A stretch of DNA of 64,000 nt from Candidatus Borrarchaeum weybense (lineage in GTDB: Archaea; Asgardarchaeota; Sifarchaeia; Borrarchaeales; Borrarchaeaceae). The notes below the pieces were generated by a model, which did no database searches, was not told the origin of the DNA, and worked only from the letters and a program-made list of their open reading frames with translations. The stretch spans positions 310,001-374,000 of the forward strand of contig JAHQJS010000006.1 in the NCBI GenBank assembly GCA_019057385.1. Direction: 5' to 3'. This document shows, piece after piece, positions 57,300 through 62,728 of this stretch (its first letter is position 1; the number at the start of each line of letters is the position of its first letter). The translations under genes and the position numbers were made by a program.

Positions 57300-58484
57300 A
57301 TGACGAAAGAAAACGTAGTTTCAGGCACAATGCTACCACAAAGATTCGAAAAAATGATTATTTCCGAAGATTCCGAAACTGAGACGTACAGATGTGTAAG
57401 ATGTGGCTTCTGTAGGTTTGCATGTCCAATTTTTGACGCGACTAAAGTAGCTACTTTCAATTGCAGAGGTAGAATTATGGTTGAGCGTGCCCTTATCGAA
57501 GGAGGACTTCCTATTGACCAAAGGGTTCTTGATCTTCTTTATACCTGCACGTTGTGCAAACTCTGCGAAACGCATTGCCCTGCTAAGATCAAAGTCACGG
57601 ACGTGATGCATCACGTCAGAGAGTGGCTTGCTGAACAAGAACATGCCCTTGATGAGCATAAGGCAATCGCAAGCAACATATTGGAGATAGGAAATACTCA
57701 CGCTCAGGATCCCGCTATCTTCAAAGAGGTTTTTGGTGAGATAATTGCAGCTCTTCCAAAGGAATCTTCTACTCTTTACTATGCTGGATGTGTTGGAACA
57801 ATTGATTATCCAGAGAATTCACTCGCTGGCATCAAACTGTTGAAAGAAGCAGGAGAAGAATTCATAATGCTTGATTCAGAATATTGCTGTGGAGGTTATC
57901 TCAACTGGCTAGGGTTTACAAAGGACTTCAAAAAAGAAGCTGAGAAAAATATAGAAATCTTCAAATCACGTGGGATTGAGACCATTATTACGGCATGTCC
58001 AATGTGTGCATCGGTTTTCAATAATGATTATAAGGAAGTCTTGGAAGATATGCCAAAGGCTTATCATATTACGGAAGTTCTCGAACGCTTGGTTGATGAA
58101 GGAAAAATAAAACTTACGCGACCACTCGAAGCAAAGGTTACTTTCAAAGATCCTTGTCACCTCGGTAGATATGCACAGGTTTACGACGCTCCACGAAAAC
58201 TGATCGAAAGTATTCCAGGCGTTGAGTTCGTTGAATTACCCGAAACTATGGGCGAAGCAAGATGCTGTGGTGGACCTATTCGTGTTCCTTATACTGCCTT
58301 GAGAAATGATCTAACCGATGAGATCGTAAGAGACGCCGCTAAGTTAGATGCTCAATTTGTTGTGACGTCATGTCCAACATGTCACCATAGTCTAAGTATG
58401 AGAGCCTACAGAGAACGTATTCGCGTTTTAGAATTGCCAAGACTTGTTGCCTATTCAGCAGGTGTAGTTGACAGTTATCGCTAA
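57300..58484 (+). CDS. HdrD/GlcF-like iron-sulfur protein (two 4Fe-4S motifs plus two CCG domains)
   Basis: CVRCGFCRFACPIF, CTLCKLCETHCPAK, YCCGGYLNWLG...ACPMCASVF, RCCGGPIRVP...SCPTCHHSL. Confidence 0.92.
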   Translation: MTKENVVSGTMLPQRFEKMIISEDSETETYRCVRCGFCRFACPIFDATKVATFNCRGRIMVERALIEGGLPIDQRVLDLLYTCTLCKLCETHCPAKIKVTDVMHHVREWLAEQEHALDEHKAIASNILEIGNTHAQDPAIFKEVFGEIIAALPKESSTLYYAGCVGTIDYPENSLAGIKLLKEAGEEFIMLDSEYCCGGYLNWLGFTKDFKKEAEKNIEIFKSRGIETIITACPMCASVFNNDYKEVLEDMPKAYHITEVLERLVDEGKIKLTRPLEAKVTFKDPCHLGRYAQVYDAPRKLIESIPGVEFVELPETMGEARCCGGPIRVPYTALRNDLTDEIVRDAAKLDAQFVVTSCPTCHHSLSMRAYRERIRVLELPRLVAYSAGVVDSYR

Positions 58485-58671
58485 ATGTGACAAGTATCTT
58501 ACCACGCATTACAAGTGTATGGGGATATATGTGTACATCAGTTTCTCCACTTTTTTTAAAAATTTAAATTATGGAGTCACGCTGACATTATCAAAGAAGA
58601 ATTGAATGAAAAACAACCGAACATTAGGTCATAGTAGTTTGGAGGTGTTCACGAAGTAGGAGGCTCGTTAA

Positions 58672-61600
58672 ATGAATGCATTGGAAAATAAAACGGCAGA
58701 AAATATCTTGGTGATTGGCGGCGGAATGGCTGGAATGTATGCCTCGCTAGACATTGCAAATCAAGGCTATACGGCTTTTCTAGTAGAGAAACGAGAAACG
58801 ATTGGAGGAAGATTTTCGCAGGTTTACAAAATCTTTCCGACTGATGAGTGCTCAGCTTGACCACTTACGCCCCTTATGTCAAGTGTTGCCAGAAACGACA
58901 ATGTTCGCTTGTTTACTCTTACCGAAGTCTTAGAGGTAAATGGCGAACCAGGGAATTTTACGGTAAAACTTAAGCAAAATCCTAGATATATCGATCCAGA
59001 CAAATGCACAGGATGTCAAAAATGCATGGAAGAATGCCCTGTTGAAGTGACTTCAGAATATGATATGAATCTTGGTGTCCGAAAAGCAATCTACCTTCCT
59101 TTTCCACAAGCAGTACCTCAGATTCCTCGCTTAGATAAAGAGAACTGCATTGACTGTGGCATGTGTGAGCTGGTATGCCCTGCTGACGCAGTGAATCATG
59201 AAGATTTTGAAAAAATCTTCGAAATCGAAGTTGGTTCGATAATCGTAGCAACGGGTTTTGATGAGTTTAATCCTGAACCATTAAAACAATTTGGATATGG
59301 ATACTACGAAAATGTTGTTACATCACTTCAATTCGAGCGAATGATGCATCCTACAGGTCCAACTCAGGGCAAGATAGTGAGACCTTCTGATGGAAAAGAA
59401 CCACGCAGAGTATTATGGGTTCAATGTGTGGGCTCTAGGAGTGAAAAAGAAGTCGGCAATAAATTCTGTAACCGGGTCTGCTGTATGTTTGCATTAAAAC
59501 AAGCTAGAGCCTATAAACTGCAATCAAAAGGAAAAGGACAGGCAGACCTTTGCTATATAGATATAAGATCCTCAGGAAAACTGTACGAGGAATACTACAG
59601 GGACACACGAAATAATTATATGCCTAATTTAATTCGCGGTAAAGTGGCGGAAATTCAAGAAAACGAAGAAACAAAAGACTTAATCATCTGGGTTGAAGAC
59701 ACTAATACTGGAGAGGTTTCTCAGATCAAAGATGTTGATCTTGTTGTCTTATCTAGCTCATTTGTTCCATCCGAAGGGACAAACGAACTATGCCAAACAT
59801 TAAGCGTTGAAATTAGCGATGATGGATTTCCCTTGGAAGTCAACAGTTATCATCCAATCGAAACAACTCGACCTGGAATCTTTATGGCGGGTGTGGCAAC
59901 AGGCTCAAAAGATGCTGTGGATACAGTTACTCAAGCAAGAGCTGCGGCATCGTCTGCAGTGAACCTTTTATCTGGTTCCCCACCATATATCAAATCATAT
60001 GCATCTAAAACGGAATTAGAAGGTTCTGGCGAGATTCGACTTGGCGTTTTTGTATGTCACTGCGGTGGCAATATCGCAAATTACATCGATATAACAGAAG
60101 TCATGGAATATGCGAAGACATTACCTGGCGTGATCTACGTAGATAATAATGAGTTCTTCTGTAGTGAGCCAGGGCAACAGCAAATCAGCGAGAAAATAAA
60201 GGAACTCAATATTAATCGAGTTTTAGTGGCGGCATGTTCTCCTTTACTCCATGAGGACACATTTAGGACTCTTTTAGAGTCTGCTGGAATAAGTAAGTAC
60301 TATCTTGAATATGTGAACATAAGAGACCAAGCAGCGCAAGTTCATATGCAGACACCAAAAGAAGCCACCGAAAAAGCAAAGGATTTGATCAGGGCTGGCA
60401 TTGCACGAGCACTACATCTTGAGATTGTGCCATATCGGATGGTATCAGTTGTCAACGAGGCTCTTGTTATTGGTGGTGGAATTGCTGGAATGTCAGCTAC
60501 CCTTGATTTATCTAATCAAGGATTCAATGTTCACCTCGTAGAGAAAGAATTGCAACTGGGTGGTCGTCTCAATTCTCTTTACAGAGTATTTCCAGAAAAA
60601 ACTGAAGCTAGCCAAATTGTGGATGAATTAACTGCACAGATAACTAATGCTCCCAATATCTCGGTTTACCTTGAGTCTTCGTTGGAATCCCTTGATGGTC
60701 ACATCGGTGATTTTACAGCTAAAATTAGGAGAAATAATGGAGCAAATACCGATATTAACGTTGGAGCTATTATCGTGGCTGTCGGAACAAATACATATAC
60801 TCCCAAAGATGGCGAATACGGTTACAATACTGTTCCACGTGTTGTAACTTCTCTTGAATTCGAGGAACTGCTCAAAACTCGTAATTTTGATCAAGATCCA
60901 AAGCGCATTGTCTTTATTCAATGCGTTGGGTCACGAGAAGAAGACGGAAACAAATACTGCTCCCGTGTGTGTTGCGGCGTATCACTGAAAAATGCGCAGA
61001 ACGTTAGAGAACTCTTTCCGAACTGTCAAACCTTTGTCCTTTTTAAAGAGGACCTACGACCTGTTGGAAGGTATATGGAAGAGTTTTATCTAACTACAAG
61101 AAAGCAATATCGTACCAATTTTATGCGATGGACAGAAGAAAGACCCCCAATGGTTACGGAAGCCCAAAATGGTAATGCTCTGGTGCAAATATACGATACC
61201 CTTTTACGAACTACATTCGAGATAGACGCCGATTATGTAGTGCTAGCGGTAGGACAAGAACCTCCTGAAGGCTTTGATGAACTGTGTAAGATAATAGGGG
61301 TTACTCGCTCTTCTGATGGTTTTCTTGAGCCTATCCACATAAAATTCAAACCTGTTGAAACACGAAAAGATGGTGTGTACGTAGCAGGGACCATTCTATC
61401 TCCACGAAGCATAAGCGACTCAATAGTGCTAGGTAAAGCCGCAGCGTCGGCAGCAAGTGTGCTTTTACAACAGAAAGAGATTCAACTTGAACTAATCAAG
61501 GCTGTATGTGACGAGAATCTTTGTAGCGGATGTAAGGTGTGCGTAATAGCCTGTCCATATGATGCTATAACTACTAAAGAAACTGAAGCAGGAGAACTCG

Positions 61601-62157
61601 TTTCGGTTACTGATGAAATTGAATGCAAGGGCTGCGGATCCTGTATTGTAGCATGTCCCTCTGGCGCTAGAGAACTTCGATACTGGCGGGATGAGCAATT
61701 CTATCCACAAATTGAATCGCTTTTAGCTGAAAGCAAGCAAAAATCATTACTTCTTGTTTTTGCTTGTGAAAAATGTGGATATGGTGCTGCTGACTTAGCT
61801 GGACTTTCAAAACTTCAATATGACTATCGTACTCGAATTATACGCGTGCCATGTACTGGTCGTGTTGACACACCGTGGTTACTTAAAGCATTTTCACTCG
61901 GCGCAGATGGCGTCGCAGTAGTCGGATGACACAAAGGCGACTGTGCATATATTGACGGCAACCTACAAGCAGAAAAATCCGTTGGATTGGCTGAGAAACT
62001 CCTTGAAACCATGGGCTTTGGTGAAGGCAGAACTGTAATGTACTTCCTTTCATCTGCGGAAGCAGAAAAATTCAGAGAAGCAATGCAAACTTTTGGCGAA
62101 AGTATTTCGAAACTTGGACCCAATCCGTCGCGCATAGCTCAAACTAGAACGGAATGA
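58672..62157 (+). CDS. hdrA: Selenoprotein HdrA-HdrA'-MvhD fusion; UGA at 58858-58860 and 61927-61929 read as Sec
   Basis: All three ORF pieces share one frame; GGGMAGMYASLDIANQGYTAFLVEKRETIGGRFSQVYKIFPTDECSA-U-PLTPLMSSV; CNRVCCMFALKQA and CSRVCCGVSLKNA; VVG-U-HKGDCAYIDGNLQAEKSV; TGA stop at 62155-62157. Confidence 0.9.
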
Positions 62158-62193
62158 TCTCTCTCGGGAAACCCTTTCGGGACTGAGAGAAGG
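62158..62193 (+). promoter_or_regulatory. Archaeal-type SECIS element in hdrA 3' region
   Basis: tc-TCTCTCGG-GAAA-CCC-TTTC-GGG-A-CTGAGAGA: 8-bp stem (62160-62167/62183-62190), internal loop GAA(A)/A, 3-bp CCC/GGG stem, UUUC loop. Confidence 0.82.
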
Positions 62194-62275
62194 ACTGGCT
62201 CCCTACGCAGGGATGCTTCTTATATATAACTTTCATAAGAATATCCTTCAATAAGACAATTAGGAGGACTTATCA

Positions 62276-62728
62276 ATGGGTAAACTTGAAGATTATGAAC
62301 TTCCAGATGACCTATATTATACAACTGAACATTCTTGGGCAAAAGTAGAAGGAGATTCTGTCGTGGTCGGCGTAACCGATTTTGCGCAGGCTATGGCTGA
62401 AAAGATTCAGGCTGTGCAATTACCTTTTGAAGGCGAGTCAGTAGAGTTCATGAAACCTTTTGGAACACTAGAAAGCGGCAAGTGGACAGGCAAGATTTAT
62501 GCCCCAGTCTCAGGTGAAGTTACTGCGTTCAATGAAGGATTGTGGGATGATGCCTCACTTGTCAACAATGATCCCTACGGCGAAGGTTGGATGGTCAAAA
62601 TTACTCCATCCAATTTGGATGAAGATCTTTCAAAACTTATGAAGGGTGGCACGGACGAATTTGTTCAATGGCAACTTGCCGAAATTGAGCGTGTAAAGAA
62701 GGAAGTAGAGGAATCAAAGAAGGAATAG
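62276..62728 (+). CDS. GcvH-like / LbpA-like lipoyl-carrier protein
   Basis: DLYYTTEHSWAKVEGDSVVVGVTDFAQAMAEKIQAVQLP...PFGTLESGKWTGKIYAPVSGEVTAFNEGLWDDASLVNNDPYGEGWMVKI; lipoyl Lys in ES-x-K. Confidence 0.93.
   Translation: MGKLEDYELPDDLYYTTEHSWAKVEGDSVVVGVTDFAQAMAEKIQAVQLPFEGESVEFMKPFGTLESGKWTGKIYAPVSGEVTAFNEGLWDDASLVNNDPYGEGWMVKITPSNLDEDLSKLMKGGTDEFVQWQLAEIERVKKEVEESKKE

Follow-up and report, generated by a model that had tools for sequence, protein, structure and literature searches.

In bacteria, the SECIS is a stem-loop located in the coding region directly downstream of the Sec UGA, whereas the element described here follows the nearer Sec codon at a distance of 225 nt, in a genome with SepSecS. 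The Lokiarchaeota SECIS elements of Mariotti et al. (2016, Mol Biol Evol 33:2441) are reportedly, going by later papers, of the same general kind as ours. The Asgard eSECIS-like type II elements (Huang et al. 2024, PMC11227280) likewise place an AUGA_GA core over the stop codon and combine it with an upper stem, a GGAAA-type bulge, and a ministem in the 3′ UTR. Such eSECIS-like elements are found in most Asgard selenoprotein genes, while GAA_A-type elements are rare in this group and probably non-functional; in the hdrA/frhD loops of Sifarchaeia/Borrarchaeales, the motif is G[U/G]AAA (PMC11227280). The published model consists of a core, an upper stem, a lower stem, and an apical loop, with a second stem-loop unmentioned in the main text; type I is its major hdrA/frhD form, whereas the hdrA element analyzed here has a three-pair ministem (PMC11227280).

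Compared with the eaSECIS of euryarchaeal methanogens (GAA_A), our element has the same AA purine bulge, three S-S pairs, opposing A, and 3′ UTR position but carries GAAA in place of GAA and a second stem-loop (P3) behind. The eaSECIS of methanogen hdrA/frhD also bear [A/G]UGA_[G/A]A (PMC11227280). Eukaryotic type II SECIS elements resemble it in the AUGA_GA core, the unpaired AA, and the ministem, and differ in that the hdrA stop codon lies inside the core here, the lower helix is unsupported, and P3 is added.

The hdrA-mvhD gene and the selenocysteine machinery

The window (i.e., the whole stretch of 64,000 nt that was analyzed) belongs to contig 6 of a 4.18-Mb Asgard genome and contains an hdrA-mvhD fusion gene with the following features:

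58672..62157 (+): hdrA-mvhD (vhuD) fusion gene, 1161 aa, two in-frame UGA codons (translation with TGA=U; Pfam)
58858..58860 (+): UGA, Sec63 (ECSA-U-PLTPLM), 3294 nt to the SECIS (Cys alignment)
61927..61929 (+): UGA, Sec1086 (VVG-U-HKGDC), 225 nt to the SECIS (Cys alignment)
62154..62157 (+): AUGA, forming the 5′ side of the eukaryote-like SECIS core and containing the stop codon (UGA 62155-62157); GGAAUGA kept in orthologous locus L038
62158..62167 (+): SECIS helix P2, 5′ strand (UCUCUCUCGG)
62168..62182 (+): SECIS apex with GAAA bulge, CCC/GGG ministem, UUUC loop, and opposing A
62183..62192 (+): SECIS helix P2, 3′ strand (CUGAGAGAAG)
62193..62194 (+): GA, the 3′ partner of AUGA in the core, aligned by covariance model R2
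62200..62213 (+): second stem-loop P3 (UCCCU-ACGC-AGGGA), 5 nt behind the core, kept in both orthologues
62220..62229 (+): TATA-like box, probably the promoter of the next gene (sequence kept in all three orthologues; promoter role inferred)
62276-62728: gcvH-like gene 3′ of hdrA-mvhD (GCV_H by Pfam)

Pfam analysis of HdrA-MvhD placed FlpD at residues 1028-1149, in addition to FAD and Fer4 domains, and the stop codon of the gene is TGA 62155-62157. When X was placed at both UGA codons, residue 63 aligned with Cys in 18/18 homologues and residue 1086 with Cys in all 11 homologues covering the site. Judged by this conservation, both in-frame UGAs of hdrA-mvhD are Sec codons. TGA is scarce as a stop codon in the window: in a hand-picked list of 32 other ORFs, TAA was used 20 times, TAG 11 times, and TGA once, versus three uses of UGA within hdrA-mvhD. 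The leader immediately before the gene (58640-58665) has the motif TGGAGGTGT...AAGTA(ATA)GGAGG, which is strongly conserved in 3/3 Borrarchaeum genomes and holds two GGAGG boxes separated by a short frame that ends in a stop.

The genome encodes SepSecS and SelB above cut-off, as well as an above-cut-off SelD that itself has a UGA in HG-U-SCK. A PSTK-like gene, with a score below the curated cut-off, adjoins selB in the same direction (G000:C7:282080-283794; loci L183 and L186). A search for tRNA-Sec with Rfam RF01852 gave no hit above cut-off, the best matches coinciding with Trp, Cys, Lys, and Leu tRNAs, and a tRNA-Sec pattern search returned 28 matches versus 36 in the control. The pattern match near selD was discarded, as no clean tRNA was apparent by eye and ARAGORN detected no tRNA in the loci scanned. 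Sifarchaeia, the class to which Borrarchaeum belongs, have a tRNA-Sec with unusual insertions and deletions (PMC9723677), which may be the reason for the missing match here. The NiFe hydrogenase genes of the genome contained no UGA within the matched stretches.

A separate observation concerns selD of families f13 and f7 (loci L089-L093; f-numbers denote families within the phylum of the window organism), which carries a 30-nt insertion with an in-frame TAA between [ND]VY and A[IK]G. The insertion can form a hairpin, and its sequence in L091 is almost wholly different yet pairs (GTGTAC-AATGTAAATCATCATGATTTACATGCATAA-GCC vs GTGTAC-AGCGCAGCCACGTGCGGGCTGCGTGCATAA-GCA); it resembles a very small intron of the mRNA or, alternatively, an element for translational bypass.

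Structure, conservation, and class of the hairpin

The hairpin proper (62160-62190) consists of UCUCUCGG / GAAA / CCC / UUUC / GGG / A / CUGAGAGA and includes one G-U pair. RNAfold returned an identical structure for this segment, so that sequence and folding together confirm the hairpin exactly as the first-pass annotation had drawn it. P2 as a whole spans 10 positions, one of them a C-A mismatch. The extent originally assigned, 62158-62193, covered the hairpin but missed the AUGA (62154-62157), the GA (62193-62194), and the stem-loop at 62200-62213. Similarly, the placement "directly behind the stop" was right about the 3′-end position but not in the sense of lying simply behind, since the stop codon is inside the element.

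Whether the hairpin is a SECIS was addressed by several searches. In a descriptor scan of both window strands (UGA, stem, AAA, ministem, GA), the element was the top-ranking site overall, with shuffled sequences yielding 0.04 sites of its score per 64-kb strand. Covariance model R2, for which four f7 hdrA elements and two f13 selD elements were used, none of this lineage, scored the element at 26.9 bits (E 5e-5) in the window. Its runner-up (E 0.44), a coding-region candidate near Sec63 at 59198, was not conserved in the orthologues and was rejected. Over 493 kb of loci, R2 produced six matches at E<=0.5, all behind Sec genes (the window element, one orthologue, three behind selD at two sites, and one behind the f13 hdrA), and this SECIS-plus-P3 model had no match in the Cys-homologue loci searched within the 493 kb. 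The Rfam SECIS families gave no match over 58400-62400, even at E<=10, and a model built from three orthologues (R1) proved too specific, its confident matches being those three only. The pattern AUGA-N-GAAACC-N-GG occurred 12 times in the 4.18-Mb genome versus 8 times for the reversed pattern, and only 2 of the 12 matches, at hdrA and selD, completed the SECIS fold; locus L125 was inspected and rejected. The apex motif of the window element recurs behind hdrA in L137 and behind selD in L089 and L093.

Two orthologues were found, with 71-91% protein identity, and both retain the hairpin. The nearest named relatives are Candidatus Borrarchaeum yapensis (91% protein identity) and another Borrarchaeota MAG (70%). 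The orthologue changes include C-G to U-G and, in L038, C-A mismatch to U-A, while loop and spacing differ. In L038, translation ends at a TAA that precedes the UGA by nine bases, and GGAAUGA is nevertheless intact; AUGA is thus conserved as a motif of the RNA, beyond any role as a stop. The SECIS identity proposed at first pass is borne out by the independent covariance model, the Sec/Cys alignment, and the Sec machinery genes: the R2 score (26.9 bits, E 5e-5) stands well above background, and the hairpin is present in both orthologous loci found. We therefore consider it very probable that the hairpin is the SECIS of the hdrA-mvhD mRNA, of the Asgard eSECIS-like type II.

The individual features agree with this class. 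The type II core (NNGA...[G/A]A flanking the upper stem) is found as AUGA 62154-62157 and GA 62193-62194; the upper stem, for which up to 2 mismatches are allowed, has 1 mismatch over the 9 positions counted; and the apex (a 3-6 nt A-rich bulge, a 2-8 bp ministem, and a 2-6 nt loop) is represented by GAAA, CCC/GGG, and UUUC. Moreover, the element sits at the 3′ end of its gene, in which the Sec-UGA aligns with Cys of homologues. The element fits the published PatScan type II pattern (PMC11227280), but this pattern is permissive and has further matches within the window, so the pattern alone is not proof of a SECIS. The lower helix of eukaryotic SECIS elements was not found in hdrA, where the best candidate has 4 bp and is not common to the orthologues.

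With regard to the eaSECIS definition, the run of three G/C pairs that should top the loop is present (CCC/GGG), and the strict GAA_A internal loop is absent from the window element, which has GAAA_A only. The original label, an archaeal GAA/A SECIS, was accordingly apt for the purine bulge with AA, the three G-C pairs, and the opposing A but not for the GAAA bulge and the AUGA_GA base; the rating of Asgard GAA_A elements as rare and probably non-functional (PMC11227280) also argues against it. On sequence grounds, the sub-class of the hairpin is Asgard eSECIS-like type II, an already known kind, and the combination of its apex (AA bulge, three G-C pairs, opposing A) with AUGA_GA looks like a link between both classes, similar to the description of methanogen hdrA/frhD elements in PMC11227280.

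The second stem-loop P3 and the outer helix P1

An equivalent of P3 (stem score >=5.5, start <=10 nt from the core) was detected behind 36 of 41 Asgard SECIS elements, compared with 7.5 expected from shuffled downstream sequence; as the elements share kinship, 36/41 is a descriptive figure and no clean probability. The SECIS-plus-P3 arrangement occurs with frhD and hdrA of f7 and f13 and with selD of f3, f4, f13, and the window genome. Almost all Asgard hdrA and frhD have been described as sharing one element (PMC11227280), whereas in f7 each has its own; separate SECIS-plus-P3 units for hdrA and for frhD were seen in loci L137, L139, L140, and L152 (f7) and L147 (f13).

In selD, a further helix, P1 (5-8 pairs), encloses the SECIS and P3, with P3 mostly abutting the P1 strand. 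A MAFFT alignment across all SECIS types was wrong, and helices were therefore counted within families. Specifically, double changes were observed in 10 of the 19 P1/P2/P3 pairs of selD f3 (n = 9 sequences; 95.9% of cells pair, and pairing is lost on sliding the partners) and in 11 of 19 in selD f4 (n = 7 sequences), counts that 0/500 shuffles reached for f3 or f4. Because P1 was located via a complementarity search, it rests mainly on these within-family compensatory changes, which show P1 closing P2 and P3 of selD into a predicted three-way junction. For the window hdrA, the best outer-helix candidate (4 bp) was not common to the orthologues and was rejected, leaving P2 and P3 as the supported helices. 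RNAfold lengthens P3 downward via AAGGA/UUCUU, so that the core GA is paired with the UUCUU 3′ of P3 and not left for the quartet; such pairing would compete with the AUGA_GA quartet.

In the full texts searched, neither the second stem-loop nor the three-way junction is described, and P3 behind Asgard SECIS elements is, as far as this search shows, new. For P3, we consider a role as a folding or docking module the most likely one. We tentatively propose, as a reading that falls a little short of an even chance, that Asgard Sec signals are composite RNAs of P2 and a position-fixed P3, closed by P1 in selD. Under this proposal, P3 would be functional, as folding support or as a second docking site for a protein or the ribosome, would have been lost in eukaryotes, and would do part of the work of SBP2-type recognition; SBP2 itself has not been found in Asgard archaea (PMC11227280).

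Alternative readings, proposed mechanism, and significance

The hairpin might instead be a canonical euryarchaeal eaSECIS that is read through the GAA/A internal loop alone, and its purine bulge with AA, its three G-C pairs, and the A opposite them fit such a reading, as does the finding that the invariant positions of GAA in M. maripaludis are its two adenines (PMC11881835). We consider this improbable: the bulge is GAAA rather than GAA and the strict model had no match, AUGA_GA is present with its AUGA kept in L038 without a stop role, and related Asgard elements keep the AUGA_GA base while the ministem varies. Moreover, a lokiarchaeal SECIS was inactive in M. maripaludis (PMC11881835).

Still less credible is that the hairpin or P3 is an ordinary 3′-end element, i.e., a terminator, an RNA stabilizer, or a processing site. 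The lack of a U-tract behind it, the lack of matches to the SECIS-plus-P3 model in the Cys-homologue loci searched, the fixed distance of P3 from the SECIS core, and its enclosure by P1 in selD all speak against this reading, despite the site behind a stop codon, the strength of the stems, and the TATA-like box that the downstream gene has for itself; it retains some room for the hdrA P3 taken alone. A chance hairpin without function could be invoked on the grounds that the published type II pattern, being loose, also has matches at other sites of the window, but the rank of 1 in the descriptor scan against 0.04 sites expected per strand, the E-value of 5e-5 from an independent covariance model, and the preservation in orthologues reduce this to a negligible prospect.

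If the hairpin is the SECIS of hdrA-mvhD, as we favor, it would mark the mRNA so that SelB and Sec-tRNA insert Sec at UGA 58858 and 61927, with SelB and its Sec-tRNA presumably recruited via a SECIS-binding factor. We expect the AUGA_GA core to adopt a kink-turn, to which a putative k-turn-binding protein would attach. As a second element was not found, a single one would serve both UGAs, 225 and 3294 nt away. The cited range of archaeal SECIS distances is 70-1500 nt (PMC9499178), and the 3294 nt from UGA 58858 amounts to ~2x its upper end, which counts against our preferred explanation, as do the missing tRNA-Sec match, the sub-cut-off PSTK score, and the RNAfold pairing of the core GA. The third UGA, within the core, would act as the true stop, presumably as the arriving ribosome melts the element. 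An element that contains the UGA stop of its own gene and at the same time serves a Sec codon 3.3 kb away would be notable in itself.

The SECIS binder in archaea is not known (PMC11881835). If P3 is essential in Asgard elements, it would provide a concrete RNA bait for this missing factor, and it could explain the failure of the lokiarchaeal SECIS in a methanogen, provided that the tested fragment lacked P3. An essential P3 would also refine the view of how eukaryotic Sec insertion arose.
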